The notes below the pieces were generated by a model. The model saw only the letters and a list, made by a program, of their open reading frames with translations, did no database searches and was not told the origin of the DNA. Positions 2,185-34,663 of a stretch of DNA of 50,954 nt are shown here, one piece after another. The stretch is from Clostridiales bacterium. GTDB lineage: Bacteria > Bacillota > Clostridia > Christensenellales > Borkfalkiaceae. The stretch spans positions 1 through 50,954 of the forward strand of contig SVII01000009.1 of NCBI GenBank assembly GCA_015069605.1. Reading direction: 5' to 3'. Numbering within the stretch: the first letter of the stretch is position 1; every line of letters begins with the position of its first letter. The position numbers were made by a program, and so were the translations under genes.

Positions 2185-5100
2185 ATGAAGAAATCAATGA
2201 AAGGTATTTTATGCGGAGCGCTGTCGATTTTGATGGCGTCGTCGCTGTTGGCGGAACACGTGCTGAGAACCAGCGCGAGTATCGTTGCGCCTTCTACGAC
2301 CGTCACCGCAAACGCTTCCATTGAAAACGTAACGGGTCAATTTGATACGACGCAGTTGACGACGAGTAATTTTAATACCAAAGTGCAGGAAACTGCTCCT
2401 AAATACGAAAACCGCACGGTGATGATTACGCTTTCGGGCGCGCCTGCGGCAGACCTTGCCGACGGCAACGACGTCAGTCAATTCGTGCAATCTTGGTCGG
2501 GGCAAAGAGAACTCAAAGAAATCGCCGCCGAGCAGGACGCGTTTTTACGCAAATTGAAGAAAACAGGCATTTCCTACACCTTAAAAAGACAGTATTCGAC
2601 GGTGCTGAATGCGGTGGCGATCGAGGTGAACACCAAGCACGTGAAGGCACTCAAACAAATAGACGGTGTGGAAAGCGTTGTTATCACGACGGCGTATGCA
2701 GAACCCAAAACGGTAGAAAGGGCGTCGAACGGCGGACTTGCTACCAACGAAACCAACGTGTACGATACGGGGATTTATGATTCGTCCGATTACGCGCATT
2801 ACGGCGAAGGCATGGTCGTAGCGGTGTTGGATACGGGTTTGGATTACACGCACGCGGCGTTCCAGGGCTTTGAAAGCGCGGACGTGGAAACGGCTTGGGA
2901 TGAAGAATACGTAAAAAGCGTTTTAGATAATTACACGCTGACGGCGGAAACCAAATCGGGTACGCTGAAAGCGTCCGAAGTGTACGTGAGCGAGAAAGTA
3001 CCTTTTGCGTACGATTACGCGGACGACGATCCTGACGTATATCCTTCTTATTCCAACCACGGTACGCACGTAGCCGGTATTATCGGCGGTTACGACGAAA
3101 ACGGGTACACGGACAAAGACGGCGTACTCATCAACGAAACGTTCAAAGGGGTTGCGCCCGATGCGCAGCTTGCAATTTTTAAAGTATTCACGGACGATCT
3201 TGACGATCCCGATCTTGGCGGCGCGGTAGCGGATGATATTATCGCTGCGTTGGAAGATTGCGTGACGTTGGGTGTGGACGTTATCAATATGTCTTTGGGT
3301 ACGTCTTGCGGCTTTACTACTACTGACGATGGGGATTCCGAAGGGGAAATGCTCAACGCGGTGTATCAGCGTATCAAGGACGCGGGCATCAGCCTCGTCT
3401 GCGCGGCAAGTAACGATTACAGTTCGGGTTACGGCGGTGTGTTCGGTACGAACCTTGCTTCTAACCCCGATTCGAGCACGGTAGGTTCGCCTTCGACGTT
3501 TGCGGCGGCGTTGTCCGTTGCCAGCGTCAACGGTCAGAAAGCGCGCTATATGGTAGCGAACGAGACTGCGGCAAGCGAAGAAAATACCTACGTGTTCTAT
3601 GAAGAATCCCGTGATATTGACGGCAATCCTTTCGATTTCATGGAATCCATGATGGAAATTTTCCCTGACGGAAAATTTGAATACGTCGTAGTCCCTGGTA
3701 TCGGGCAAACGGCGGATTATATGGCGTCGGTGAGAAGATTATTCAAAGACAACAACGGCAACAGCTTGAACAGAGTCGCTTTGGTCAAGCGTGGCGACAC
3801 GACCTTTGAAGACAAAGTGAAAGTGGCGATGCAGATGGGTGCGGTAGGCGTCATCGTTTACAATAACGTAGCAGGCGTCATCCGAATGAACCTCGGTGAA
3901 ATCGACAACCCTGTGCCTGCCATCTCCATCAATATGAACGCAGGGCAAGCGCTTACGGAAGGCGCGACGGGCCGTATCGGTACGTTGCGTTTAGACCCTT
4001 CGTACGAGGCAGGCCCGTTTATGAGTGAATTCTCCTCTTGGGGGCCTACGCACGATTTGACGTTGAAGCCTGAAATCACGGCGCACGGCGGAGAAATCAC
4101 GTCCACCGTTCCCGGCGGTTACGGCGAACAAAGCGGTACGAGTATGGCGTCGCCCAACATGGCAGGTTTCGTAGCTTTGGCAAGAAGTTATATTGAAAAA
4201 GAACTTACGCATCTTGTGACGAAAGACGGCAAAGTGGATCAAACGCTTGTCAACAGTCTTGCGTACCAGTTGATTATGAGTACGGCATCCACAGCGTACG
4301 ATCCCGATAATTTGCCCTATTCACCTAGAAAGCAGGGTGCGGGGATCGCGAGAATGGAACGCGTGATCGGCGGTACGACGGCGTATCTTTCCACGGACGT
4401 GGAAACAAACGATTACCGTCCCAAGATTGAAGTAGGTGAAGATGAAGAAAAAACGGGCGTATATACGTTGAAATTCAGCGTGACGAACTTCGGAACGGAA
4501 GATCTCATTTTTACACCTTCGCATATCGCAATGACGGAAACGCTGTCTTTGGACGGCTTGACGGTGAATGAACAAGCGCATTTGCTCAACGAAGCAACGG
4601 CGGAATGGAAAGTGGACGGCAAGGCGCACGTGGGCGACATCACCGTAAAAGCAGGTGAAACCAACGAAATCGTCGTAACGCTGAGCCTTTCGGACGGCGA
4701 AAAGGCGTATATTGACGAAAGTTTTAAAAACGGTATGTACGTGGAAGGGTTCTTGCAACTCAAATCCACAGCGAACGGACAATGCGATTTGAGTATTCCT
4801 TTCCTTGCGTTCTACGGCGATTGGGAAGCGGCGCCCATGCTCGATTATACGGCGTTTGAAGTGGCGGCATCCGAACAAGACGGTTCGGTAAAGGAAGAGG
4901 ATAAGCTTAAAGCCAGCGTTTGGGAAACGCAGCCTTTCTCCAGCTACTACAATGAAAAATACATTTTGCCGATGGGTGGATACGTATATCTTTTGCCTGA
5001 CGGCGCAGACCCCATGTACGTGAATGAAGAATATTGCTCGGTGTCCCGTTATAACGAATATTACGGGGAAGGCAACGCGGAAAACTACATGACGTCTACG

Positions 5101-8100
5101 GGTATCAAAGCGGTGTATGCAGGGCTTTTGCGTAACGCGCGTATCGTAAAATATACTATGTATAACGAAGATACGGGCGAAGTGATTATCGAAAACGGCG
5201 AGATCAACCGTGTTGGAAAAGCTTATTCGGGCGGCGGCAGCGGCACGCCTGCCAACGTGGAATTGGAACTTGATCCCGAAGAATACGGATTGGTGGCAAA
5301 CGGCAGGTATAGAATGGAATTTGAGTTCTATATGAACGAGCCGAAAGACGGCGAAGTTTGTCCCGAAGAAAACACGTACGCGTTCTCGTTTACGGTGGAT
5401 TACGAAGCTCCCGTATTGGAAGACGCGCGTGTAAGATATTATAATTATAAAGACGGAAACAAGGAAAAACAGCGTATTTATTTAGACGTGGACGTGTATG
5501 ACAATCATTATGCGCAGGCGTTGATGCTCTGTTATCCCAAACTCAATTCCGACGGGGAAACGGTGTTGCAGCTTGCAACCGAATACCCCACGCCTATTCG
5601 TGATGCGAACAAGAACGGAAGAACGACGGTTTCCATTGATATTACCGATATTTACGATTATATTTGCAAGGAATACGGCAATCAAATTTATATCCAAATT
5701 GACGACTACGCGATCAACACTTGTTTGTACCGCGTACAGCTTGGCGATGCGAACAGCGCGGAAATGCCCAAGGGCACGGAATTCCGCCTTGCAGACGGCG
5801 AAAATGCGTTGACGTTGGATCAGTACGCTACGCATAAAGTAGCGCTTGTGTACGGCGACGAATACAAAGGCGGCGCGGATCTTTCTAACTTCCTTTGGAC
5901 GAGCGCGGACGAAAAGATTGCGGCAGTGAAAAATGGCGAGATCGTGGGGATTTCGGCAGGAAATACGACGGTGACGGTTAGCAACCGTAAGGGCGCGTCC
6001 TACACCATCGACGTCACGGTAAGTGATAAGATTGCAGTGACGTTACCCCAAGCGCCTTCTATTTCTTTCGGCGTAATTAAAAATTACGTAGATGCGTTGG
6101 TGAAAGCTTCGGGTACGGTGGAAGTGTTTGCTGGCAAGGATATTGCGTTGCAAGTCGTGACGGAACCTTGGTATCACCCCATGACGAATTTAAAACTCGT
6201 TTGGGAAACGAGCGACGCAAGCGTGGCTACGGTGGACCAAAACGGGAACGTGAAAACGTTGAAGAAAGGTGTGGCAATCGTTACGGCTACCGTTTATCAA
6301 AACGTAAACGGCGAATGGGAAAAGACGTTGTACACCACGACGGTATTCTTGCGCGTGCGTAATGAATTTACCGTCAGCAACTATACGCTGACCGATTATA
6401 ACGGCGTGGGCGGTGACGTAGTCATTCCCACGGATATGAATATTTGGTATATCGGGGAAGAAGCGTTTAAAGACAACGACAATATCCGTTCGATTGTGAT
6501 TCCTGCGTCGGTGACGCAAATCAACGAACGCGCGTTTGCAAACTGTTCGGCGTTGGAAGAAGTATATTTCGTATCCAAAACCGCGCGCGTAAAGACGGAC
6601 GGTACGGAAGATTTCAGTATTGACTGGGCGGATCTTTCGATGGTATATCAGCAGGCTTTCTTGAACTGTAAGAAGTTGAAAAAAGTCGATCTTAGCAATG
6701 TGAAAACGATTACAATCTCCGACGAATGTTTCGCAGGTTGCAGCTCGCTTTCCGAAGTGGTGGATATGCCCAGTATCGGCACGATGCACCACCGCGCGTT
6801 TGCAAACTGTACGTCGTTGACGAAAGTGGACTTGACGGGATTGCATATGAGCGGCGAATACGTGTTTGTCGGCTGTACCAACTTGGCAACGATCAAGACG
6901 GGTAAATTTACGGCGATCGGCAAGTATATGTTCAGCAGTTGCACAGGCTTGCGTACGAGAGTGACTTTGCAAACGCCTAAAATCGGCGACGGTGCATTCT
7001 CGGGGTGCGTGAACTTGAGCGGCGTGAAATTCACTTCGCCCGAGGGTGAAAAACTTAGTTTTGACATTGGTGCAAGAGCGTTTGAAGATTGCGGCAAGAA
7101 TTTGAACGGCAATTTCCAAATCGTTTGGGAAGGTGAAATCATTCGCTCCATCGGTGAAAGAGCGTTTGCGGGTTCGTCCTTGAAAGAATTTGGCGCAATT
7201 ACGGGTTTGACGAGCCTTGGCGCAGACGCATTCGCAAACACCAAAATTTCGACAATCTACGTAAACGATACGTTGGATATTGACAATTTACAAATTTTAG
7301 GCGTACCTTTCAACGGATTGACGTTGATGGTGGTAGGCGGAACGAAATATAAAGAAGCAAACGGCGTAATTTATAACGCAGAGATGACGAAAGTGCTGTT
7401 TGTCAATCCGTCGGTTGTTGGCGAGTTCGTTCTTCCCAGCAACGTGCAGGAGATTGGCAAATACGCATTCTCGGCAAGCAAAGTGACGAAAGTTACTCTT
7501 TCTCCGTCGGTGACGAAAATCGGAGAAAGTGCGTTTGAAAATTCCGCAATCCGTTCGATTGATTTTAACGGCGCGGCGATTACGGAAATTCCTTACAAAG
7601 CGTTCTTCGGCTCTAAATTGACGGCGGCGGCATTGCCCGTAAGCGTTACGAAGATTGGGGAAAGCGCGTTTGAGGGTTCGGCTTTGGCGGCGTTCAGCGG
7701 CGAGAGCGTGACGGAAATATCCAACCGCGCGTTTGCAAACTGTATCGTATTGCAGACGATTGTTCTTCCTGACGGTGTTAAGACGATGGGAGATCGCGTG
7801 TTCGCAGGTTGTACCGATTTGACGGAAGCTACGCTTTCCTCTTTGGAAACGCTCGGCTCGTGGACGTTCTACGGCGCGACGAAGTTAAATAAAGTGGTCT
7901 TTGGCGCGGATGCTACGACGACGGGTGAATACACGTTTGCGAGGACGCCCGTGACGGAAGTGACGTTGGGCGAAAACGTAGAAAGGATAGAAACAGGCTT
8001 GTTCTACGGCTGTCAGAGATTGACGGCGATTACGTTGCCGACGTCGGTGACGGAAATCGCGGCGGAAGCGTTCAACAGCTGTGGCGCTTTGGCGCAGGTT

Positions 8101-9750
8101 GTTGGTTTGGAAAACGTGAAAACGATTGGGGATCGCGCGTTCTATAACACGGCGTTGACGGAACTTCGTTTGACGAATGCAACGAAGATCGGTTTGGGCG
8201 CGTTTGCCTCGGAAGGCAGAAATGGTGCTATCAAACCTGCAAGCTATACCAAGATCACGATGCCTGTAGTGGAAACGATTGGCGAATTTGCTTTCCTTTC
8301 AGGAAATCAAACGAGTGTGGAACTTCCTGCAAGCGTGCGCGCGATCGGTTACGGCGCATTTGCGGCGTCTAAAAACTTGACGACGATTACAGTAGCGGCC
8401 GACAACGCAATGTTCTTTGCGGAGAACAACGTTTTGTATCGTTATATCAACAAAGCGGAAAACACGCTGGAAATCGTTTGTTACCCTGCGGCATTGACGG
8501 CGGCGGAAACGGACGGCGTGAAAGCGTATGCAATCAAGGACGGTACGGTGCTTGTCAAAGCGTACGCATTCTTCGGTGTAAACGGTTCGGCGCTTAACAA
8601 AGTAACGTTGCCGTACAGTGTCAATGCGATCGGGGACAGCGCGTTCTTGGACAGCGGCGTGAAAGAATACGTCTTTGAAAGTATTCAAGCTCCCGTATTA
8701 GAAGCGGTGTACCGCCAAGAAATCGTGGACCGCATTGAAGCGATGGCGACGGATATGACCGTGTCCTACTATAAAGGGTATTTCTATACCAACTTCGCAA
8801 AAGGTATTTTTGATTACACGTCGTACGGCAATACGGCAAGTGATCTTGTGATGCAGTATCCGTCCAACGGTACGGGATATGACAATTATATCTACAACAC
8901 CTATTTTGGTGAAAAGGTGAAGACGTCGGCGTTGCTGGAAGACAGTACGCGCGAATGTATCAGCATGATTGAAGAAATGGCAACGTGGAACGTTCTTTCT
9001 TGGATGCAAGCGGGATCGGGAATGACGGTGGAAGAGCTCACAGCGAAATCCGATTACGTAAAGACGGCGCGTTTGTATTATAATAATGCTTTGAAGAATG
9101 CGGAGCAAGCTGCATATATCACCGAGGAACTGGAAAACACGTTGCTTGCGGTGGAAAAGGATATGCGTGTTGTGAAACAGCATTTCAATATCCCCATTCG
9201 CATCAGCTCGTTGGAAGTGGACGTATCTAGTACGCATAAATCGCAATATCTCGTTGGCGAAACGTTCGATATGACAGGTTTGGTAGTGTTGATCGTGTAC
9301 GACGATTACTCGACCGAGTTTGCGGATATATCCAAGGTTACGTTAGAATTGACACGCGGTTTGTCGAAATATGACAGATACGTTACCGTAAGGTACGAAG
9401 GCACGGAGGAAGAACTCCGTGTGGCAGTAACGGTTATGGAAGAAGAGGAAGAAGAACCTATTCTTCCACCCGAAGATTCGTCTTTTGAAACGTCGGAAGA
9501 TACGGACAGTGACGTGATCTCGTCCGAAAACAGCGCAAATACGAGCGGCGACAAGAAAGGCGGCTTTGGTGTTGGTATTGTGATTGGTATAGTGGCAGTA
9601 ATTGCGGCAGTAGCCGTTGTTATCATAGTATTAAAGAAAAAAGGCGTAATAGGGGCGTCTGCCGTAGCGGTGGAAAGTTCTGAAAAATCCAAAACGGATA
9701 CAGAGCAGGAAGAAGAAATGGTGGATGAAAATACAACGTCGGAGGAGTAA
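2185..9750 (+). CDS. Giant membrane-anchored subtilisin-like (S8) protease with BspA repeats
   Basis: 2521-residue secreted protease. Signal peptide about 1-31. The S8 domain has the full triad: Asp216 (VLDTG), His292 (NHGTHVAG) and Ser653 (GTSMASP), with Asn410 (AASND) as oxyanion residue. A protease-associated (PA) domain is inserted at about 500-600, as in lactocepin and C5a-peptidase relatives. It is followed by Fn3-like beta domains (about 740-1200), two Big_2-type Ig domains (about 1203-1285 and 1290-1390), about 770 residues of BspA LRR_5 repeats (1396-2168), a helical stretch and another Ig-like domain (2341-2418). An acidic stalk leads to one transmembrane helix (about 2461-2484) and a short acidic cytoplasmic tail. 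There is no LPXTG, so anchoring is by the helix. Role inferred: degrading host or dietary protein at the cell surface, with the LRR part for binding. First gene of a three-gene unit. Confidence 0.93.
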   Translation: MKKSMKGILCGALSILMASSLLAEHVLRTSASIVAPSTTVTANASIENVTGQFDTTQLTTSNFNTKVQETAPKYENRTVMITLSGAPAADLADGNDVSQFVQSWSGQRELKEIAAEQDAFLRKLKKTGISYTLKRQYSTVLNAVAIEVNTKHVKALKQIDGVESVVITTAYAEPKTVERASNGGLATNETNVYDTGIYDSSDYAHYGEGMVVAVLDTGLDYTHAAFQGFESADVETAWDEEYVKSVLDNYTLTAETKSGTLKASEVYVSEKVPFAYDYADDDPDVYPSYSNHGTHVAGIIGGYDENGYTDKDGVLINETFKGVAPDAQLAIFKVFTDDLDDPDLGGAVADDIIAALEDCVTLGVDVINMSLGTSCGFTTTDDGDSEGEMLNAVYQRIKDAGISLVCAASNDYSSGYGGVFGTNLASNPDSSTVGSPSTFAAALSVASVNGQKARYMVANETAASEENTYVFYEESRDIDGNPFDFMESMMEIFPDGKFEYVVVPGIGQTADYMASVRRLFKDNNGNSLNRVALVKRGDTTFEDKVKVAMQMGAVGVIVYNNVAGVIRMNLGEIDNPVPAISINMNAGQALTEGATGRIGTLRLDPSYEAGPFMSEFSSWGPTHDLTLKPEITAHGGEITSTVPGGYGEQSGTSMASPNMAGFVALARSYIEKELTHLVTKDGKVDQTLVNSLAYQLIMSTASTAYDPDNLPYSPRKQGAGIARMERVIGGTTAYLSTDVETNDYRPKIEVGEDEEKTGVYTLKFSVTNFGTEDLIFTPSHIAMTETLSLDGLTVNEQAHLLNEATAEWKVDGKAHVGDITVKAGETNEIVVTLSLSDGEKAYIDESFKNGMYVEGFLQLKSTANGQCDLSIPFLAFYGDWEAAPMLDYTAFEVAASEQDGSVKEEDKLKASVWETQPFSSYYNEKYILPMGGYVYLLPDGADPMYVNEEYCSVSRYNEYYGEGNAENYMTSTGIKAVYAGLLRNARIVKYTMYNEDTGEVIIENGEINRVGKAYSGGGSGTPANVELELDPEEYGLVANGRYRMEFEFYMNEPKDGEVCPEENTYAFSFTVDYEAPVLEDARVRYYNYKDGNKEKQRIYLDVDVYDNHYAQALMLCYPKLNSDGETVLQLATEYPTPIRDANKNGRTTVSIDITDIYDYICKEYGNQIYIQIDDYAINTCLYRVQLGDANSAEMPKGTEFRLADGENALTLDQYATHKVALVYGDEYKGGADLSNFLWTSADEKIAAVKNGEIVGISAGNTTVTVSNRKGASYTIDVTVSDKIAVTLPQAPSISFGVIKNYVDALVKASGTVEVFAGKDIALQVVTEPWYHPMTNLKLVWETSDASVATVDQNGNVKTLKKGVAIVTATVYQNVNGEWEKTLYTTTVFLRVRNEFTVSNYTLTDYNGVGGDVVIPTDMNIWYIGEEAFKDNDNIRSIVIPASVTQINERAFANCSALEEVYFVSKTARVKTDGTEDFSIDWADLSMVYQQAFLNCKKLKKVDLSNVKTITISDECFAGCSSLSEVVDMPSIGTMHHRAFANCTSLTKVDLTGLHMSGEYVFVGCTNLATIKTGKFTAIGKYMFSSCTGLRTRVTLQTPKIGDGAFSGCVNLSGVKFTSPEGEKLSFDIGARAFEDCGKNLNGNFQIVWEGEIIRSIGERAFAGSSLKEFGAITGLTSLGADAFANTKISTIYVNDTLDIDNLQILGVPFNGLTLMVVGGTKYKEANGVIYNAEMTKVLFVNPSVVGEFVLPSNVQEIGKYAFSASKVTKVTLSPSVTKIGESAFENSAIRSIDFNGAAITEIPYKAFFGSKLTAAALPVSVTKIGESAFEGSALAAFSGESVTEISNRAFANCIVLQTIVLPDGVKTMGDRVFAGCTDLTEATLSSLETLGSWTFYGATKLNKVVFGADATTTGEYTFARTPVTEVTLGENVERIETGLFYGCQRLTAITLPTSVTEIAAEAFNSCGALAQVVGLENVKTIGDRAFYNTALTELRLTNATKIGLGAFASEGRNGAIKPASYTKITMPVVETIGEFAFLSGNQTSVELPASVRAIGYGAFAASKNLTTITVAADNAMFFAENNVLYRYINKAENTLEIVCYPAALTAAETDGVKAYAIKDGTVLVKAYAFFGVNGSALNKVTLPYSVNAIGDSAFLDSGVKEYVFESIQAPVLEAVYRQEIVDRIEAMATDMTVSYYKGYFYTNFAKGIFDYTSYGNTASDLVMQYPSNGTGYDNYIYNTYFGEKVKTSALLEDSTRECISMIEEMATWNVLSWMQAGSGMTVEELTAKSDYVKTARLYYNNALKNAEQAAYITEELENTLLAVEKDMRVVKQHFNIPIRISSLEVDVSSTHKSQYLVGETFDMTGLVVLIVYDDYSTEFADISKVTLELTRGLSKYDRYVTVRYEGTEEELRVAVTVMEEEEEEPILPPEDSSFETSEDTDSDVISSENSANTSGDKKGGFGVGIVIGIVAVIAAVAVVIIVLKKKGVIGASAVAVESSEKSKTDTEQEEEMVDENTTSEE

Positions 9751-9753
9751 AAT

Positions 9754-10410
9754 ATGGCGGAATTGAACAAGGAAAACGTAGAAGAAAAAGAACAAATCGC
9801 AGAAGAAACTCCCGTAGAAGCAACTGAAAACGCAGAACCCGCAACGGAAGAACCCGTTGCGGCGGATGCGCCCGTGGAAGAACCCAAAGCGGAAGAAACG
9901 GTAGAGGAAGCACCTGCGAAAGAAGAACCTAAGGCGGAAGAAAAACCTGCGGATGAGGAAGTGCAGTTAAGCTTGGACGAAGAGGCTATCCAGGAAGAAC
10001 CCAAAGCCGAAGAACCCAAGGCTGAGGAAACGGTAAAGGAAGAACCTGTTGTTGAGGAAGATCCTGCCGTAGAAGAACCTGCGCCCAAGAAAGCAAAGAC
10101 TGAACCCTTGGAAAAGAATAATATTTGGCACAATGCAAATTTGTGGTTGCATATGCTTGGTATCGGTGAAAAGCCAGCAACGACCAAAGCGGAAAAGAAA
10201 GCGAAAAAAGCTGCTGAAAAAGCAAAAAAGAAAGAACAGAAAAATAAAAAGACAGTGCGCATGGAAATCGTTATCAACGAAAACCAGAGCTGCGGTTCGA
10301 CGTACAGCAACGGCGTACACGTTGACCTTGTGGTAAACAACCACAGCGGCAAAGAACTCGAATTAACGGAAAAAGATGTTGAATTTGAGATTGTTAAACT
10401 CTGCAAATAA
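9754..10410 (+). CDS. Hypothetical acidic/Lys-rich protein, second gene of protease operon
   Basis: I do not recognise this 218-residue protein. It has no signal peptide or membrane helix and should be cytoplasmic. Residues 1-115 are low-complexity Glu/Pro/Ala repeats (EEPKAEE-like), probably disordered. A short hydrophobic patch (IWHNANLWLHMLGIG) and a Lys/Ala-rich stretch (about 148-168) follow. The last 50 residues look folded (VHVDLVVNNHSGKELEL), possibly a small beta domain. The ATG is 3 bases after the protease stop and its ribosome binding site (GGAGGAG, 9740-9746) lies inside the protease gene, so the two are translationally linked. The protease ends in an acidic cytoplasmic tail, so contact between them is possible, but this is speculative. 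The repetitive DNA may vary in length between strains. Confidence 0.75.
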   Translation: MAELNKENVEEKEQIAEETPVEATENAEPATEEPVAADAPVEEPKAEETVEEAPAKEEPKAEEKPADEEVQLSLDEEAIQEEPKAEEPKAEETVKEEPVVEEDPAVEEPAPKKAKTEPLEKNNIWHNANLWLHMLGIGEKPATTKAEKKAKKAAEKAKKKEQKNKKTVRMEIVINENQSCGSTYSNGVHVDLVVNNHSGKELELTEKDVEFEIVKLCK

Positions 10411-10442: not shown

Positions 10443-10673
10443 ATGGAAGAGAGAAACGAAGTTATGAATGAAGAAGTAGTAGCAACGGAAGAAACGAAAG
10501 TTGTTGTAAACTGCCCTAAATGCAGCGCGGCTTTGAAAGTTAGCCAAGGTTCGTATGCATATATGTGTCCCGTTTGCAGCGGTCTTTTCCGTGTTCGTAA
10601 ATGCGAAAGAATCGTGAAAGACGTCAGCCGTGAAACGATGATGGAAGCGTTTGTAAACGTAAACCAAGACTAA
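10443..10673 (+). CDS. Small zinc-ribbon protein
   Basis: 76 residues, with an AAAGGAAGG ribosome binding site 9 bases upstream. The acidic N-terminus (1-18) is followed by a four-Cys zinc ribbon: Cys24/Cys27 (CPKC) and Cys42/Cys45 (CPVC), with 14 residues between the pairs, then a basic FRVRKCE segment. Both the spacing and the L.V..G.....CP.C...F.VRK pattern match the last 40 residues of the membrane protein at 29358-31046 (CPTC...CPGC..VFEVRK). It is the third gene of the protease unit. Zinc ribbons of this size bind nucleic acid or protein; nothing here says which. Function unknown. Confidence 0.8.
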   Translation: MEERNEVMNEEVVATEETKVVVNCPKCSAALKVSQGSYAYMCPVCSGLFRVRKCERIVKDVSRETMMEAFVNVNQD

Positions 10674-26317: not shown

Positions 26318-26642
26318 TCTTTTTTGAGGGATTTTTTTCAAAAATTTAAAAAAATTTCTGCCCTATGGATTGTCACAAAAAAAATATTAATTTTTTAAGA
26401 AATTTATGAAAAAATTGAAGAAATGGTGTTGACAATTCAAATAAAAAGAGTTATAATAGATGTAAAATTAGGGATAAGATAGAATTTTGCGTTTTCATGC
26501 GGTGAAATTTGTGTGAAAAAATGCGTTTTATCACTGTTTTTTAAAAATCGAAGAGAGGATTGGCCTCGATTCGTCGTTTTTTGCGTTAAAGAATAACGTT
26601 AAAAACGCTGAAATTGTCTAATTAAAACCTTGGAGGTTATAT
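26318..26642 (+). other. AT-rich intergenic region and long leader before the membrane-protein cluster
   Basis: Contains a strong promoter (26429-26457) and then a leader of about 180 bases. The leader has weak foldable pieces: AATC..GAGG with CCTCGATT (about 26546-26571) and GCGTT/AACGC arms (about 26583-26610). I recognise no known riboswitch. The first 100 bases are A/T tracts without a clear terminator for ppa. Confidence 0.55.
26429..26457 (+). promoter_or_regulatory. Perfect-consensus sigma-A promoter of the membrane-protein cluster
   Basis: TTGACA (26429-26434), 17 bp, TATAAT (26452-26457): both boxes match consensus exactly, which implies strong expression. Confidence 0.92.
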
Positions 26643-27869
26643 ATGAGAAGGCAAAAGATTTCACAAAACAAGCATCGCGTTTATATGAAAAAACGCATTG
26701 CGAAGACCCGCTCCAGAGCGCAAAATGCAGGTTTCTTCTACTTGCTCGGGACACTCGCTGTTACGGCATTGGCTTGCCTGCCTTTGCTTGCATCTGAAGT
26801 AGCAGTTCTTGGCGCTATGAACTTCTGGACGATTTTGAACGTAGAAGGTGGGCTTTTCACGCTTCCTTTCCGTCAGGTCGTAATTGCTGCTTTGTACGCG
26901 ATTATGCTTGTTGTTCTTCTTATCAACGTAATCAGAATTTTCACGAAACTTGGTTGGTTGTACAAGAAGAAGGCTAGTAAAATGTACGGTTTTAACCGTA
27001 ACGTTTACGCAATGGACGACATGGGCAAGATTTTTGCATGCTCGTTCTCGACTGTAGTTGTTATGCACTTTGCAATTTACATTGCTTGTGGCGAATACGC
27101 TGTAACGATCAGCCCCCTTGCATATGCTGTAATCGGCGCTGGCTTGTTCTTCCACTTCGTTGCTTGTCTTATCGGCAGCAAAGTTAGTCTTTTTGACATT
27201 GAAGAAGGTTTCGGTGTAAGCGAACAAAGAAGAATGGTTCCCGTATTCCCTGCATTCATCCGCAATGTACTTCAAGTAGCAGTTATTGCTGTTATCGTTT
27301 ATATGTTCGCATCTGCTTCCAACATGATGGAAACGTTTGCTGCAATTACTCCTATCGTAGACAATGCATTTAGCATGACGAACCTTACGAACTATATCAA
27401 CGGTCTTGCTGCTAATCCTTTGTCGGTTGTTGAATTTGCTACGCAAGCATTGACGTTCGTATGGATTGTTGTTCTCGTTAAGCATGCTGTTGCTGCTACC
27501 GAATACAACATGGAAGGCGCAGATGGCGCTGGTATGAAGACCTCCAGAGTGTTCTTCTTCCTTACGTTCTTGACTGCTGCTGGTACGTTCGTATATAGAT
27601 ATGTTCTTGCTGCAGAACCTGCAATGGACATGAACAGCCTTATCGTTGCTGTTGCTGCACTTGTTATGTTCATTATCGAAGTTATCATGCGTAATGCTCC
27701 TGGCATCCCCGTTGAAATCAGCGAAGAAGATATCCTTGCAGCTGAAATGGCGAGAGAAGCAGCTAGCGACGACGTAGATATGGACTACTACTTCCAAGGC
27801 GCATACGTTCCCGTATACAATCACTCCGTTCAAACGAGACCTTGTTACGAAGAACTTATGGATGACTAA
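26643..27869 (+). CDS. Polytopic membrane protein, first of three tandem paralogues
   Basis: 408 residues, GGAGG six bases before the ATG. I do not recognise the family. A basic N-terminus (KKRIAKTRSRAQ) precedes about eight transmembrane helices (near 31-50, 77-100, 132-150, 158-178, 205-224, 262-282, 302-322, 331-349). The loop after helix 2 carries a Lys-rich patch and the motif GFNRN..AMD.MGK (116-129). Later conserved pieces are HF..CLIGS.VSLF (171-184), RNVLQV (207-212) and VVLVKHAVAATEYN (276-289). All recur in the next two genes. The C-terminal 55 residues are acidic and cytosol-type. Codons favour GCT, GTT and CTT as in the ribosomal gene rpsP, unlike the flanking genes, which fits high expression. 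Transport, envelope structure or sensing are all possible. Confidence 0.85.
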   Translation: MRRQKISQNKHRVYMKKRIAKTRSRAQNAGFFYLLGTLAVTALACLPLLASEVAVLGAMNFWTILNVEGGLFTLPFRQVVIAALYAIMLVVLLINVIRIFTKLGWLYKKKASKMYGFNRNVYAMDDMGKIFACSFSTVVVMHFAIYIACGEYAVTISPLAYAVIGAGLFFHFVACLIGSKVSLFDIEEGFGVSEQRRMVPVFPAFIRNVLQVAVIAVIVYMFASASNMMETFAAITPIVDNAFSMTNLTNYINGLAANPLSVVEFATQALTFVWIVVLVKHAVAATEYNMEGADGAGMKTSRVFFFLTFLTAAGTFVYRYVLAAEPAMDMNSLIVAVAALVMFIIEVIMRNAPGIPVEISEEDILAAEMAREAASDDVDMDYYFQGAYVPVYNHSVQTRPCYEELMDD

Positions 27870-27899
27870 TTAATCCTTATTATTTAAGCGTTGGCAAAA

Positions 27900-27936
27900 T
27901 GCTTCCGACCAGAATAAGATAAATACATAGGAAGCA
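27900..27936 (+). other. Hairpin between the first and second membrane paralogues
   Basis: TGCTTCC (27900-27906) pairs with GGAAGCA (27930-27936), loop of 23 bases, no T run. It may tune mRNA stability between cistrons. Confidence 0.4.
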
Positions 27937-27957
27937 CAAAAATTCTAGGAGAAGAGT

Positions 27958-29172
27958 ATGAAAGAATCTGGCTCCAAGGCAACGCGTCTGTTAAAGAAAC
28001 GGATTAGAAGTATACACCGCAGGGCAAAGTTTGTCGGCATACTTTATTTGCTGGCAACAATTGCCCTTGCGGCGTTAGCTTGCTTGCCTTTAATTAAAAT
28101 TGAAAACAGCGATTATTTGTGGTTGATTAATCTCGATACGGGTGCTTTCGCAGGGTTTGTTGAACCGTTCACTGCTTTAACGAGCGGTGCGGAGATGGAC
28201 GCGAAATTGCTTTTAGACGTTGTTTCGGCAGTATTGTACGTTCTCGTACTGTTGATTGCTGTCATTAACGTAATTAGATGCTTTACGAAGTTGAACTTCT
28301 TGTTCAAGAAGAAAGCAAGCCGTTCGTTAGGTTTCAATCGTAATATGTTCGCAATGGATCAAATGGGAAAAGCATATTCGGCTTCTTTCATTTGGATGGT
28401 GGTGTTGTATTTCTTCATCATTATGATCCGTACATACGTATTTACTACGACGTTTACGCTGATCGCGTTGGCAGTAGGAGTTGCATTCCACTTCATTTGC
28501 GGTCTTATCGGAAGCTCGGTTACCCTCTTTGTAGAGGTGGAAAACGACGAACAGAGATTCCGCTTTACGTATGGTGAAAATGGTGGTACGGGTTGGTCTT
28601 CCAACACGTTAAGAGTGGAAGAGCAGAAGAGAGAACAGCCCGTTAGAACGTTCTTCTTGCGTAACGTTATTCAAGTTGTCTTGTCTTGCGTTATGATGTA
28701 TTTCTTCTTATCGTTCTCGACTGTCGGTTACGCAGTAACGGATATTGTAGGCGGTAATATGGATGCATTGATGAACGATATGATGGGATACCTTATTCCC
28801 GTAGCGGTACAGCTTTTGACGGCTATAATGACTTGCGTGGTGTTTAGCTATGCTTTATCTACCAATGAATACGATCGTGATTGTATGGGCGATAAAGTGC
28901 GTGTAAAACGTAGATGGAATCGCGCGAACATTTGCCTCGTTATGATTTTGGCTGTTGTATCGTTAGTATTACCTTTGATCGCAGGCGGCGAAATCGTTAC
29001 CAATCAAATCCTTTTTGTAATCTTGGCATTGTCGATGTTCGTTTTGGACGTTGCGATTTTCCCTAGAGATAAGAAAAAATGGATTGGCGGCGTTATTTGG
29101 GATGGTTGTGAACCTTATGCAACCTATTCGCCTCGTCATTCGGATTGCGAACTGTATAGACCTACGTTCTAA
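27958..29172 (+). CDS. Polytopic membrane protein, second tandem paralogue
   Basis: 404 residues, AGGAGAAG just upstream, 88 bases after the first paralogue. Same plan: basic start (KKRIRSIHRRAKFVGILYLL), helix, extracytoplasmic loop of about 35 residues, helix, KKKAS.SLGFNRNMFAMDQMGK (about 117-138), a helix pair ending HFICGLIGSSVTLF, RNVIQVV, and a C-terminal helix. The late motif that reads VLVKHA.AATE in the other two is changed to FSYALSTNEYD here. It has an extra hydrophilic insert of about 35 residues (VENDEQRFRFTYGENGG..) before RNVIQVV. The tail is short and rich in Tyr/Cys. Function unknown. Probably co-transcribed with its neighbours. Confidence 0.83.
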   Translation: MKESGSKATRLLKKRIRSIHRRAKFVGILYLLATIALAALACLPLIKIENSDYLWLINLDTGAFAGFVEPFTALTSGAEMDAKLLLDVVSAVLYVLVLLIAVINVIRCFTKLNFLFKKKASRSLGFNRNMFAMDQMGKAYSASFIWMVVLYFFIIMIRTYVFTTTFTLIALAVGVAFHFICGLIGSSVTLFVEVENDEQRFRFTYGENGGTGWSSNTLRVEEQKREQPVRTFFLRNVIQVVLSCVMMYFFLSFSTVGYAVTDIVGGNMDALMNDMMGYLIPVAVQLLTAIMTCVVFSYALSTNEYDRDCMGDKVRVKRRWNRANICLVMILAVVSLVLPLIAGGEIVTNQILFVILALSMFVLDVAIFPRDKKKWIGGVIWDGCEPYATYSPRHSDCELYRPTF

Positions 29173-29205
29173 TAACTTTGCGGTTATAGGATAAAGGAAT
29201 TAACT

Positions 29206-29328
29206 TTGAAAAAAACGGTGTATGAAAAGTCGATTTACGGCAAAGTAAAAAACCGAATAGCAGCCGCCCGAAAGGGAGTTGTAAGATTTTCTCGAAATCT
29301 TACGGAATACATAAACTGCGAAAAATAG
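29206..29328 (+). CDS. Possible 40-residue basic peptide
   Basis: Small ORF starting with TTG, with AGGA seven bases upstream, lying between the second and third membrane paralogues. The product is basic and could form an amphipathic helix (KSIYGKVKNRIAAARKGVV), ending YINCEK. A perfect 9 bp hairpin (29281-29303) lies inside the ORF. I have no family match. It may be a real small protein, a decayed start of another paralogue (K-rich start), or leader RNA only. Confidence 0.35.
   Translation: MKKTVYEKSIYGKVKNRIAAARKGVVRFSRNLTEYINCEK
29281..29303 (+). other. Perfect hairpin ahead of the third membrane paralogue
   Basis: GTAAGATTT-tctcg-AAATCTTAC, 9 bp stem and 5-base loop, no T run. 54 bases before the next start; a candidate processing or stability element. 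Confidence 0.5.
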
Positions 29329-29357
29329 AGAGAAAGTTTTAGCTAAGGAGATATACG

Positions 29358-31046
29358 ATGAAAGCGTACGAACCCAATGCGATTGCATCGAGAAAGCGAA
29401 TAAAGAAAGTTCATTCGAAAGCAAAATTTGCCGGTCTGCTTTATTTGTTCGGTACGATTATTTTGGCTGTATTGGCAATTTTGCCTATGCCTGCACCTTT
29501 TGCTCCGGTATTGAGCATCAAGTTTGCAGGTGAAAACAATATTTCGGTAATGAACGTCTGGAATGCTTTCGCTTCCGGGCTTAGCGTTGATTTGGTCATT
29601 GCTATTTTGTATTTGTGCATTGTCCTTACCGGTGTTGTTAACATCATTAGAAGTTTGGCGAAACTCGGTCGTTTGATGAAGAAGACGTCGAGATATGCAA
29701 ACGGTTGCAATAGAAATATGCGTGCTATGGATGATTTGGCTGCAATTTTCTCTGGCACGTTTGCAGCGATCATCAACTTCAACTTCTTGATTTACGTAAT
29801 GGGAGAAGAACCTTCGTTCTCAATCCTTGCGTACGCAATCATTGCAGTTGGCTTGTTGATTCACTTCCTTGCAGGTGTTATTGGCGGTAACGTCAGCTTG
29901 TTTATCGTAGGTGCTACGGTAGAAGAACAAAAGAGAGAGAATGGTGTTGGCATATTCTTCGTACGCAACCTTCTTCAGGTTATTGCTACGGCGGCAATCG
30001 TATACATTTTCGGTGTAGCTTGTACGTTGTATCAGTTGATGCCTGACATTATGGCGTTCAACTTTGCAGGTATTATGGCTGGCGGCATCATGAATATTCT
30101 CAAACTTGCTCTTATGGTACTTGCAATTGTTTGGATTATGGTTCTTGTGAAGCATGCAACGGCAGCGACGGAATTCAACCGTTGGGGTATGGATGGCCCT
30201 GGTATGAAGAATTATAGAATTTTCAGTTTCTTCACTTTCATCACCTGCGGTGCATCTTTCCCTGTAATTTTGTTGTACAATGGCAACATGATCTATAACT
30301 ACTTGATCGTAGCGATTATTGCGTTTGTATTCTTCCTTTTGGATTGCATTATCAAACCTGGTGATCCTAGAGCAATGTGTAAGGGTAGAGAGGATATCTG
30401 CGAATTGCCTGATATGCCCCCCGTACCTCAAAGACCTATGATGCCTACGTGTGCGCCTATGACGATGTGCGCTCCTAGACCTATGTGTGCTCCGATGCCT
30501 TCGTGCAGCAACTATTGCACGGGTTGCGGCCCTCAGGGTATCTCCGCTTGTGCATCTCCCGCAATGGCTCCTATGCAGGCGCCCGATATGTACAGAGTTA
30601 ACTCTCCCGCATGTCTTACGAGAACAGGTATGGACAGCCGCCGTTTGAGAGAACAGGGCTACACCTTGAGAGATCGTGATGACGATTTGAGACAGGCAAG
30701 AGCTCTTGCAAAAGTAAACACGAAGCAAGAAAAGAAAAATAGAAAGAAAGCAAAAAAATTGAATGGTAAAGAAAAAGATTTTGTAAAAAATCTTGAATCT
30801 GCGGAAATGACGCCTGTTGCGCCTCCTGCAGCACCTGATACGTTTGATGTAAGACTTTCTTTGCCTGCTTCGCTTTTCCCTGGCAATATGCCTATGCCTG
30901 TACCCAGTGCAGACAAGAAATGGGAAGTAAAATGTCCTACTTGCGGTAAAACGTTGGAAGTAATGGACGGTGCTCCTTATAATCGTTGCCCTGGTTGCGG
31001 AAAGGTATTTGAAGTTCGCAAAGGCGAAAAATCTGTTCAAAAATAA
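29358..31046 (+). CDS. Polytopic membrane protein with zinc-ribbon tail, third tandem paralogue
   Basis: 562 residues, AAGGAG seven bases upstream. Residues 1-330 repeat the family plan: basic start (RKRIKKVHSKAKFAGLLYLF), about eight helices, NGCNRNMRAMDDL (115-127), HFLAGVIGGNVSLF (169-182), RNLLQV (203-208), VLVKHATAATEFN (262-274). The extra C-terminal 230 residues are soluble. They comprise a Pro/Met/Cys-rich stretch (354-420) with repeated MCAP-type units, a charged Lys-rich segment (445-480), and a terminal zinc ribbon with Cys526/529 and Cys544/547 (CPTC...CPGC) ending FEVRKGEK. The ribbon matches that of the small protein at 10443-10673. It may link a membrane complex to a cytosolic partner; function unknown. 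A terminator follows. Confidence 0.85.
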   Translation: MKAYEPNAIASRKRIKKVHSKAKFAGLLYLFGTIILAVLAILPMPAPFAPVLSIKFAGENNISVMNVWNAFASGLSVDLVIAILYLCIVLTGVVNIIRSLAKLGRLMKKTSRYANGCNRNMRAMDDLAAIFSGTFAAIINFNFLIYVMGEEPSFSILAYAIIAVGLLIHFLAGVIGGNVSLFIVGATVEEQKRENGVGIFFVRNLLQVIATAAIVYIFGVACTLYQLMPDIMAFNFAGIMAGGIMNILKLALMVLAIVWIMVLVKHATAATEFNRWGMDGPGMKNYRIFSFFTFITCGASFPVILLYNGNMIYNYLIVAIIAFVFFLLDCIIKPGDPRAMCKGREDICELPDMPPVPQRPMMPTCAPMTMCAPRPMCAPMPSCSNYCTGCGPQGISACASPAMAPMQAPDMYRVNSPACLTRTGMDSRRLREQGYTLRDRDDDLRQARALAKVNTKQEKKNRKKAKKLNGKEKDFVKNLESAEMTPVAPPAAPDTFDVRLSLPASLFPGNMPMPVPSADKKWEVKCPTCGKTLEVMDGAPYNRCPGCGKVFEVRKGEKSVQK

Positions 31047-31105: not shown

Positions 31106-31170
31106 ATATAGTAGCATCGCGTGACAACGGCATACTTGATGTGAATTTAGTGACAATAAGAGTCGAACCG

Positions 31171-31340
31171 ATCGAGTAAAAGTGCTTGAATAAAGGTATT
31201 ATATTAATCGAGTAAAAGTGGTTGGATAAAGGTATTATATTAATCGAGCAAAAGTGGTTGGATAAAAGTCTTATATTAATCGAGTAAAAGTGGTTGGATA
31301 AAGGGATTGTATTGATCAAGCAAAAAGGGTTGTGAAAATA
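31171..31340 (+). repeat. 36 bp direct tandem repeat, four full copies and one partial
   Basis: Units start at 31171, 31207, 31243, 31279 and 31315 (partial), exactly 36 bases apart, core ATCGAGTAAAAGTGGTTGG. Copies differ at a few positions. There are no spacers between units, so this is a minisatellite and not a CRISPR. On the minus strand the unit has no stop and would read as a 12-residue repeat, but no ribosome binding site or proper start is present. Confidence 0.9.
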
Positions 31341-31570: not shown

Positions 31571-34500
31571 ATGAAAAAGAAAATGATTTATTGGATAACG
31601 TCTATATTTTTAGCTTTGACTGCGATAGGATTTGCCGCTTGTAAAGATGACGATAAAAATACCGAGTCGAATAACGTCGAACAAAGTCAAGAAATAGAGA
31701 GCAGTTCAGGAGAACATACTCACGTATGGGAAGAAAGTTTTTCCGAGGCTTTGACGTGCGGTAAAAGTATTGAAAAAATCTATTCTTGTGAATGCGGCGA
31801 AACGAAGAAAGAAGACGTACAACTTCCTGAACATTCTTTTATCCATTACGAATTTGACAACAATCCTTGGTGTGATGAAAACGCTACAGAAACGGCGGTT
31901 TGCGACAACGAATGGTGTGAAGTGACGGATACGCGCGAGGTTCCTAATACCATGACGGGACACCATGGCGGCGCGCGTTCTTGCAAAAGCCAAGCGGTTT
32001 GTGTACAATGCCAAAAACCGTATGGAGAGATCGGGACGCACCGATTTACCGATTACGTGTACAACAATGACGCTACGTGCGAGGAAGATGGAACAGAAAC
32101 GGCGGTTTGTGTTTATCACAGCGACGTCGGTTGCAATGAAACGGACACACGACGTGCATTTGGTACAGCTCTTGGACACTCTGGTCTTAAAGGCACGTGT
32201 ACGGAACGTTCCCTTTGTGAGCGTTGCGGTATAGAATTTGGTGGATATTTCCATTTTTTCCAAAATTACGTGTACAATAACGATGCGAAATGTGAAGTGG
32301 ACGGCACGAAAACAGCGATTTGTGAATACGGTTGCGGCACCCAAAACACGGTAGAACAAAAAGGCTCGGCATTAGAACATATTTTTGAAAACTATGTATC
32401 TGATAACAATGCGACGTGTGAAACGGACGCAACGCAAACAGCGATTTGTGAGCGCGAAGGCTGCGAAAGCACGCACACGGTATCGATTGAAGGCACTGCG
32501 CTTGGTCATACATACGGCGCTTACGTATCCGACGAAAGCGGCAAGTGTGAAGAGAATGGTACGGAATCGGCGCTGTGCGTCAACGGTTGCGGAGAGAAAT
32601 TGACTAGGGAAGAGCGTTGGTCGCATCTTGGACACAATTTTGTGGACGGCATTTGTACTGCTTGCGAGGCAAAGGAATCCATTGGGCTCGAATACGTTTT
32701 CAATGAAATAGGGCAATATTACAGTGTGGCGGGGATCGGCACGTGCACGGATTCTACCCTTTTGATCCCTGCGACGTACAATGGTTATCCCGTGAAAGAA
32801 ATTGCGGATGATTCGTTCAATCGTGGTAATTTAAAACAAATCGTAAAGGTAGTGCTGCCAAATACGGTAACGTACGTCGGTACGAATGCGTTCGGTGTTA
32901 ATGACGCTTTGACGAATGTGTTGCTGTCCAAAAATCTCACCGAACTCGGCGCGTATGCGTTTTGGAATTGTCCCGCTTTGGAAAAATGTCCTTTGCCTGA
33001 CAGTTTGACGATACTTCACCCAGATACGTTCTCGTTTTGCAAAAAGCTGACGGCAATCGAATGGAGCCAAAATTTAACGGAAATCGGGGATAACGCATAT
33101 TCTTGGTCGGGTGTACAAAACCTAGTCATTCCAGACACGGTTACGTCTATCGGTGTGTTTGCTTTTACGCATTGTGAAGAGCTGATTTCCGTAGAACTCC
33201 CCGATACAATCACGCGTATCGAGCAATCCACTTTCGAAGAATGTTTCAATTTACAAAGCGTAAAATTGCCGAGCGACTTAATCGCAATCGGCAGTTGGGC
33301 ATTTAGCAAGTGTGTTTCTTTGCAAACAATATCTTTCCCTGAAAGTCTTTTATGGATTGGGGATAAGGCGTTTATGGGCTGCGAATCCTTGCAAACGTTG
33401 ACCTTTCCCGCTAAATTACAAACAATTTCTGGCGAGGCATTTCGGGAATGTTTGTCGATTGAAAGGGTTGTGATTCCCGAAGGAATGGCGAAGTTAGGGC
33501 AGGCGGCGTTCTATGGCTGTGAAAATTTAAAAAAAGTGGTATTGCCTGAAAATTTTGTTATGCTGAACCAGGCGTTTATTTATTGTAGCAACTTAGAAGA
33601 AATCAATTTTCCCAGAATGATGAAGGAAATCAGTTCGGGGGATTTCTTGGGGTGCGAGAAAATAAAAGACGTTCAATTACCTGATAGTGTGACGTCGGTT
33701 TCGGCGGCTACTTTTTCGGAAACGGCATGGTTTAACGACAAAAATAATTGGACAAACGGTATGCTGTTTAGCGGAAAGCATTTGATTGCGATTGATGAAA
33801 CAGTTAGTGGAACGTTCCATATTCCCGACGGAGTGTTGACGGTTGCGGATCAACTGTTTACATCCTCTCAGGTGACGGAAGTGTATATTCCTGCCAGCGT
33901 TTCCAACATAACGTCGTCTGCGTTTTGGAATTGTACAAAGGTGGAAAAGATTACGGTAGCGGACGAAAACGTTAAATATTTTTCCGTGGACGGAAACTTG
34001 TACGAAAGACTTCTGTTGAACGATGGCACTCCGATTGGGACGTGTACGTTGGTTAAATTTGCGCCGTCCAACCCGATGAAGACGTATATGGGGATAGAAG
34101 GTTTGACGAATATTCAATCGCGCGCGTTTTCATGGTCGCAATACGTTGAAGAAGTAATTTTTCCCGACAGTGTTACTAGAGTACAGTATTATAACTTTGA
34201 AGAGTGTGCGGCGTTGAGAAAAGTGGAGTTTTCTCCTAACATTACAAGTTTAGAACAAATGTTCTACAAATGTCCGAACTTGGAAGAAATCATATTGCCT
34301 AAAAAATTGACGCAACTTTTCTATCATTTCGTCGCGTACTGTCCCAAGCTGACGACGTTGATTCTTCCCGACAGCGTGATGTATATCGGGGAAAATCTTG
34401 CGAATCATTGCGATGCGTTAACCACCGTAGTGATTGGGGTAAACGTAAAAACGGTTTATACAAATATGATTTCTTCTTGTCCGAACGTGAACGTATATTA

Positions 34501-34663
34501 TAAAGGCTCGGTGGAAGATAAGGCGTTGATACAGTATCAGGGCGACGAAACGTTCCTTGGCGCGTGGTATTGTTACAGCGAAACGCCGCCGACGGAAGAG
34601 GGGGATTTTTGGCATTACGTAAACGGTGAGATTGTGCAGTGGGAGTTCGTTCCCATATCATAA
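31571..34663 (+). CDS. BspA-like lipoprotein with Cys-rich N-terminal repeats
   Basis: 1030 residues. The signal peptide and lipobox (GFAAC, Cys24) closely resemble those of the lipoprotein at 8-1840. Residues about 50-375 are six or so Cys/His-rich repeats of about 45 residues with pattern YV.NNDATCE.DGT.TA.C....C...GTALGH, each with paired cysteines that may bind metal or form disulfides. A single related unit occurs in the lipoprotein at 19140-20714. From about 380 to 1000 there are some 25 BspA LRR_5 repeats (L..I..SAF..C..L..V.LP..V..I). The end has the FWHYVNGEIVQW motif shared with the 8-1840 product. Inferred to be a surface adhesin or binding protein. Its nearest upstream DNA is the 36 bp repeat, so the gene sits in a variable region. 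Confidence 0.88.
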   Translation: MKKKMIYWITSIFLALTAIGFAACKDDDKNTESNNVEQSQEIESSSGEHTHVWEESFSEALTCGKSIEKIYSCECGETKKEDVQLPEHSFIHYEFDNNPWCDENATETAVCDNEWCEVTDTREVPNTMTGHHGGARSCKSQAVCVQCQKPYGEIGTHRFTDYVYNNDATCEEDGTETAVCVYHSDVGCNETDTRRAFGTALGHSGLKGTCTERSLCERCGIEFGGYFHFFQNYVYNNDAKCEVDGTKTAICEYGCGTQNTVEQKGSALEHIFENYVSDNNATCETDATQTAICEREGCESTHTVSIEGTALGHTYGAYVSDESGKCEENGTESALCVNGCGEKLTREERWSHLGHNFVDGICTACEAKESIGLEYVFNEIGQYYSVAGIGTCTDSTLLIPATYNGYPVKEIADDSFNRGNLKQIVKVVLPNTVTYVGTNAFGVNDALTNVLLSKNLTELGAYAFWNCPALEKCPLPDSLTILHPDTFSFCKKLTAIEWSQNLTEIGDNAYSWSGVQNLVIPDTVTSIGVFAFTHCEELISVELPDTITRIEQSTFEECFNLQSVKLPSDLIAIGSWAFSKCVSLQTISFPESLLWIGDKAFMGCESLQTLTFPAKLQTISGEAFRECLSIERVVIPEGMAKLGQAAFYGCENLKKVVLPENFVMLNQAFIYCSNLEEINFPRMMKEISSGDFLGCEKIKDVQLPDSVTSVSAATFSETAWFNDKNNWTNGMLFSGKHLIAIDETVSGTFHIPDGVLTVADQLFTSSQVTEVYIPASVSNITSSAFWNCTKVEKITVADENVKYFSVDGNLYERLLLNDGTPIGTCTLVKFAPSNPMKTYMGIEGLTNIQSRAFSWSQYVEEVIFPDSVTRVQYYNFEECAALRKVEFSPNITSLEQMFYKCPNLEEIILPKKLTQLFYHFVAYCPKLTTLILPDSVMYIGENLANHCDALTTVVIGVNVKTVYTNMISSCPNVNVYYKGSVEDKALIQYQGDETFLGAWYCYSETPPTEEGDFWHYVNGEIVQWEFVPIS

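Follow-up and report, generated by a model that had tools for sequence, protein, structure and literature searches.

Tandem membrane paralogues with a ribbon-like tail on the last copy: a candidate envelope complex of gut Clostridia

In this work we analysed a window of 50,954 nucleotides (nt), the whole of contig SVII01000009.1 from a Clostridiales bacterium of the Borkfalkiaceae (assembly GCA_015069605.1), and in it three tandem genes, here called A, B and C, which encode paralogous membrane proteins. The product of the last gene alone carries a long tail ending in a zinc-ribbon-like module, a feature absent from the sequence-only reading of this DNA that preceded our analysis, and this restriction of the ribbon to the last copy holds in all 19 multi-copy loci found in the genus. 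We tentatively propose, with rather less than even confidence, that the family forms a complex of different subunits, one of which would dock a partner through its ribbon. The genes and their landmarks are the following.

26643..27869, + strand: gene A, 408 amino acids (aa), eight-helix membrane protein with a short tail without ribbon
27958..29172, + strand: gene B, 404 aa, membrane paralogue without ribbon
29358..31046, + strand: gene C, 562 aa, eight-helix core (about residues 1–345) and a tail of about 215 residues
26991..27017, + strand: motif FNRNVYAMD of A, in predicted cytoplasmic loop 2
27219..27278, + strand: stretch of A from SEQRR to RNVLQV, in predicted cytoplasmic loop 4 and the start of transmembrane helix (TM) 5
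27471..27503, + strand: motif VLVKHAVAATE of A, at the end of TM6 and in predicted cytoplasmic loop 6
28333..28359, + strand: motif FNRNMFAMD of B
29706..29732, + strand: motif CNRNMRAMD of C
30933..31007, + strand: zinc-ribbon-like segment of C, CPTC...CPGC, C-terminal, CxxC-x14-CxxC

The sequence-only reading had placed three related genes in tandem at these coordinates, and it was right on both counts: in BLASTP, A and C are 39% identical across 355 aligned columns (E 6e-63), A and B 35% across 295 (E 1e-35), and B and C 28% across 407 (E 2e-41). A Shine-Dalgarno-like sequence precedes each gene. The motifs [FC]NRN..AMD, HF....IG..V[ST]LF and RN[VL][LI]QV, described in that reading, were each found in all three proteins, and VLVKHA.AATE is present in A and C and absent from B.

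In the AlphaFold model of C the blocks of the core mostly have a predicted local distance difference test (pLDDT) score above 85, and a large part of the tail scores less than 50. The ordered parts of the tail are a helix (residues 437–480) and a small four-stranded ribbon (521–552; strands 521–525, 532–536, 541–543 and 550–552), in which the pattern of residues 526–550 forms two CxxC knuckles within a small beta fold. The tail thus resembles known zinc-ribbon domains (LysW-like, Zn_ribbon_4 and others) in its CxxC-x14-CxxC spacing and predicted four strands, but all Pfam matches of C fall below the curated cut-offs (best 17.4 bits versus 27); from its sequence, it probably binds zinc. Elsewhere in the window (10443–10673, + strand) a ribbon resembling the C tail is found on a separate protein of 76 aa, encoded beside a Glu/Pro-rich 218-aa protein (9754–10410) that has only a sub-threshold BsuPI match. 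Similar small ribbon proteins are present in other members of the genus; in G018, G079 and G013 they lie about 4 kb away from the family genes.

Family cores are present in 45 of 57 genomes of the genus, as three copies in 12, two in seven and one in 26. Wherever there are several copies the last bears the ribbon (19/19 loci) and none of the others does (0/31). Among the 26 single copies 18 have a ribbon, five do not and three (G065, G078, G019) run off the contig, so that the rule is strict in multi-copy loci only. The tail is not tied to one type of core: it sits on a B-type core in five two-copy loci and on a C-type core in two single-copy loci, and was therefore apparently kept or re-made during copy loss. 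These loci are most simply read as a history in which cores were gained and lost while each locus usually retained one ribbon, and the position of the tail, usually on the last or only copy, hints that A, B and C act as one machine. As a separate observation, the tails in L103, L108, L111 and L127 consist of short Val/Asn/Pro-rich repeats in long runs, which extend to the contig ends and probably break the assemblies.

The array had been described as a local triplication, which as a recent event is not supported. In a tree of 76 cores, read along with trees of the two core halves and without weighing support values, all 12 first copies of the three-copy loci are placed on one side (A) and all 12 last copies in a single group (C); the paralogues are therefore old. 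Second copies are less clean, most lying near the B group, and B of the window shifts between the full and half-trees together with the second copies of G021, G024, G029, G077, G018 and G079. Two-copy loci retain different pairs: in G003, G030, G036, G033 and G074 the ribbon belongs to a core of the B group, G013 retains B plus C, and the last copy of G073 is C-like. Single copies comprise two C-like (G008, G032), 10 A-like and a divergent group of 14 whose placement differs between the half-trees. Nor is a need for three copies supported, one being carried by 26 of the 45 genomes.

The cores diverge rapidly. Mean identity by position in the three-copy loci is 38, 34 and 40%, and at the same loci that of the neighbouring genes proS and ppa is 86% and 80%; this is not unique to the family, since mcsA (49%) and two lipoprotein-like clusters (34 and 46%) are also variable there. 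Pairwise distances over 11 of the 12 three-copy loci, with 5000 permutations, show that B and C diverge together (r 0.88, partial 0.86 given proS, 0/5000 permutations); the partial correlation for A and B is 0.56 given proS (2/5000), and the A–C distances gave 0.36 (78/5000).

The eight helices deduced from the sequence are seen in both AlphaFold models. That of the A core (356 aa) has a mean pLDDT of 90.1 and a predicted template modelling score (pTM) of 0.89, with eight membrane-spanning helices of 21–37 residues each. Over the 76 family proteins the mean number of lysines and arginines is 6.1, 6.4, 4.0 and 2.6 in the N-terminus and inner loops and 2.5, 0.4, 1.7 and 0.8 in the outer loops; both ends of each protein are therefore predicted to be cytoplasmic, as in the models. 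Outer loops are the most variable parts (mean entropy 2.9–3.4 bits), and some of the lowest values (1.8–1.9 bits) are those of inner loops 2 and 6. The strong conservation of polar motifs claimed earlier is borne out by the column counts: in A numbering, some of the most conserved columns are N208 and E287, invariant in 76/76 proteins, R197, Q211 and Y33 (75/76), E194 and R207 (74/76), G297 and A282 (72/76), G30 and H171 (71/76), and N118 and N120 (70/76). At the predicted cytoplasmic face are the most conserved polar or charged residues: the NRN of loop 2, the E..R of loop 4, the RN..Q with which TM5 begins and the TE of loop 6; TM4 has a conserved histidine. Most near-invariant polar columns thus fall within loops predicted, from the model and the charge bias, to be inside, and they count in favour of the proposed complex, as do purifying selection and the conserved promoter (below). 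The genes are under purifying selection: the ratio of nonsynonymous to synonymous substitution rates (dN/dS) is 0.09–0.23 in eight family gene pairs from three genome pairs, values that are rough because dS exceeds 1 in every pair, with no whole-gene sign of positive selection in these eight pairs (proS, 0.03–0.06).

Upstream of A the window has the following two elements.

26429..26457, + strand: sigma-70-type promoter, TTGACA-17-TATAAT, 12/12 consensus match with a 17-base spacer
26464..26642, + strand: leader of about 178 nt with predicted hairpins, its start site inferred

The sequence-only reading had identified both the perfect-consensus promoter and a leader of 180 bases. The promoter is conserved: in 18 loci (the window and L024–L040, up to 260 bases upstream of the first family gene), the first family gene has a 12/12 promoter in 15 and an 11/12 promoter in two, and L026, where ppa abuts the family gene, reaches 9/12 only. 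As controls we took 93 other genes from these loci, each preceded by 120 bases or more and with its start guessed from the first methionine: a 12/12 promoter precedes three of them and an 11/12 promoter 18, and none of 93 single-base shuffles scores 11/12. The length of the leader is not conserved, since it ranges from 35 to 178 nt among relatives with an 11/12 or 12/12 promoter, and a conserved leader RNA is not supported by these lengths. The leader of the window, the only one computed, has a folding z-score of –2.9, and an Rfam scan of the window gave one match only, a tRNA.

That the proteins belong to an unrecognised family was also borne out: the membrane core matched no known family in Pfam, NCBIfam, PHROG, PDB profile or PADLOC searches. 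In Pfam at E≤1, A and B had no match and C only ribbon-type families; in NCBIfam, A had one weak match (YonT, E 0.2) and C ribbon-type families only; the PADLOC anti-phage defence models gave no family for A, B or C at E≤0.1, and PDB profile searches nothing below E 0.05. PHROG matches of C are confined to its last 45 residues (best 25 of 35 families listed). Among 43 members, most shared family matches are ribbon-type and the others isolated weak single matches, the best being MS_channel_TM1 in Pfam (E 6.4e-4, among the best 25 of 47 families) and an oligosaccharide repeat polymerase in NCBIfam (E 2.8e-4). The folds of G-protein-coupled receptors, ATP-binding cassette (ABC) transporters and glutamate transporters were set aside at Foldseek TM-scores of about 0.07–0.26, and a BFVD fold search gave nothing at E≤0.001. 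A mobile or viral origin was rejected, none of 46 viral-contig stretches that matched the pattern being confirmed as a relative; no plasmid relative was found for protein A and no phage relative for the C core. A literature search by general terms found no publication on the family. What is new is the protein family; its activity may be of a known kind.

The family is, judging from profile searches, restricted to its genus. These searches score only some first-look candidates per genome, and the order, class and phylum samples overlap. No full-length match to the core profile appeared outside the genus in 396 genomes of the order (six genomes matched, three of the genus and three with short weak matches); among 391 genomes of the class the window's own genome alone matched, and among 299 of the phylum that genome and one short match. 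The full profile matched 53 of the 57 genus genomes, part of them by the tail only, and nine of 247 other genomes of the order, always starting at profile position 262 or later (C-terminal part and tail); of these nine, G193 was the one read further. Two weak core-profile matches outside the genus were discarded: the protein of G374 looks like an amino-acid ABC permease, and that of G048 seems unrelated. Within the genus, G011 and G067 have a ribbon tail alone at a contig edge, adjoining proS; in G001, G002, G004, G020, G025, G064 and G066 no core was seen, and ppa and proS lie on separate contigs or are not both present in full. As its genome is 96% complete, G001 may lack the family.

The interpretation in the sequence-only reading is supported in part: the ribbon on the last copy only and the co-divergence of B and C favour a working complex, and single copies in 26/45 genomes speak against a need for three. 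We suggest that A, B and C would be subunits of a single genus-specific complex of the cytoplasmic membrane, made from a strong promoter and possibly at a high level, which would carry one flexible tail with a zinc-ribbon-like module, on the product of the last gene; this tail could dock a cytoplasmic partner, in a scaffold-like rather than a transport role. Several observations weigh against this proposal. With 26 of 45 genomes single-copy and five complete single copies (G062, G068, G072, G069, G027) without ribbon, neither heteromerisation nor the ribbon can always be needed, and the 10 A-like singles are mixed in this respect (four with ribbon, three without, three off a contig edge). In G012, G016 and G023 ppa and proS are adjacent with no family gene between them. 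Part of the co-divergence may come from linkage, long branches, gene conversion or rates common to a lineage. Codon bias, taken as a proxy, gives no consistent sign of high expression in A, B, C or their relatives, A ranking high within the window, B and C not, and relatives being mixed; this incomplete genome yielded no EF-Tu gene as a reference. The same single-copy genomes, in which one copy suffices, and the old separation of first and last copies would suit three independent paralogues, each homomeric and merely linked, an explanation that we find unlikely but deserving of weight; against it stand the single ribbon, always on the last copy, at all 19 multi-copy loci and the co-divergence of B and C beyond proS.

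Other rivals concern activity rather than assembly. A secondary transporter or small-solute channel, with the conserved cytoplasmic polar cluster as gate or binding site, would fit polytopic proteins with a conserved histidine in TM4, tyrosines in TM1 and TM2, and R/N/Q at TM5. We consider it improbable, as A, B and C match no transporter family, the 43 members have only isolated weak matches (for example to a cation/H+ antiporter subunit, E 5.8e-4), and the constant neighbours ppa and proS suggest no substrate. We hold it equally improbable that the proteins are lipid scramblases or lipid-handling proteins akin to the animal XK-related scramblases (XKR4/8/9), their polar residues easing head groups across the bilayer. 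Like the XK-related proteins, the family is predicted from helices and charge bias to have eight helices in two consecutive four-helix halves with a cytoplasmic N-terminus, and longer loops and the C-terminus inside; structural alignments to XKR proteins span 235–253 residues. Yet these alignments gave no significant fold score, nor was there a significant sequence score in a Pfam search whose library is assumed to include the XK-related model. Two papers served for comparison (PMC8298096, PMC8500837). XKR9 has the half-membrane helices IH1 and IH2 (PMC8298096), whereas the model of A has no such helices in the TM2–3 and TM6–7 loops, only short ones at 103–106 and 285–288; and in place of the caspase-cleaved inhibitory C-terminus of XK-related proteins the family has the ribbon-bearing tail. 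Four-helix membrane bundles (claudin, TARP, synaptogyrin, TTYH) match over half the protein, an arrangement that is common.

The best weak match outside the genus (E 2.7e-4) is a small protein of another family of the order (G193), with relatives in five more genomes of that family (G252, G230, G128, G059, G147; E≤1.2e-7). Both core halves align to the same stretch of it (hhalign probability 36% and 18%), and like the halves it has four helices by eye (five by a crude count), with a QP-rich arm; it differs in that this arm is N-terminal and no ribbon was seen in six such proteins. Within the core itself, the halves are not detectable as sequence repeats (hhalign probability 0.7%). From these alignments a doubled four-helix ancestor like the G193 protein may be taken as a lead for the eight-helix fold, not as a result. 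The G193 protein adjoins other small membrane proteins, those with Pro/Gln-rich arms standing in tandem (L157, 1556–4450, – strand; also L163–L167). A combined picture, in which up to three paralogues would form an XKR-like bacterial lipid-moving complex, bound by its single zinc-ribbon tail to a cytoplasmic partner and with a fold possibly derived from a doubled four-helix protein, is in our view very unlikely; if the XKR resemblance were true, a eukaryotic scramblase architecture would exist in bacteria. Returning to the heteromeric complex with a docking tail, a confident predicted structure without match, a full-consensus promoter and the one-ribbon rule make it a candidate undescribed envelope complex of uncultured gut Clostridia.

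The usual gene order is ppa, family, proS. In 16 of 17 public loci, all but L027, proS is the gene directly after the last copy, and the stretches of the three-copy loci include ppa in 12/12 and proS in 11/12. Beyond proS, eight or nine of the 17 public loci have a helix–turn–helix gene, mcsA, mcsB and clpC, names that we read from the sequences. No pathway emerges from this gene context. In the window C and proS are separated by a gene for what looks like a BspA-like repeat lipoprotein (31571–34663), and the gap between C and this next gene contains, at 31160–31330, several imperfect repeats of a roughly 45-base unit (ttaatcgagtaaaagtggttggataaaggtattata...), spotted by eye. Further away, positions 2185–9750 encode a protein of 2521 aa that reads as a subtilase with leucine-rich-like repeats and a C-terminal anchor.
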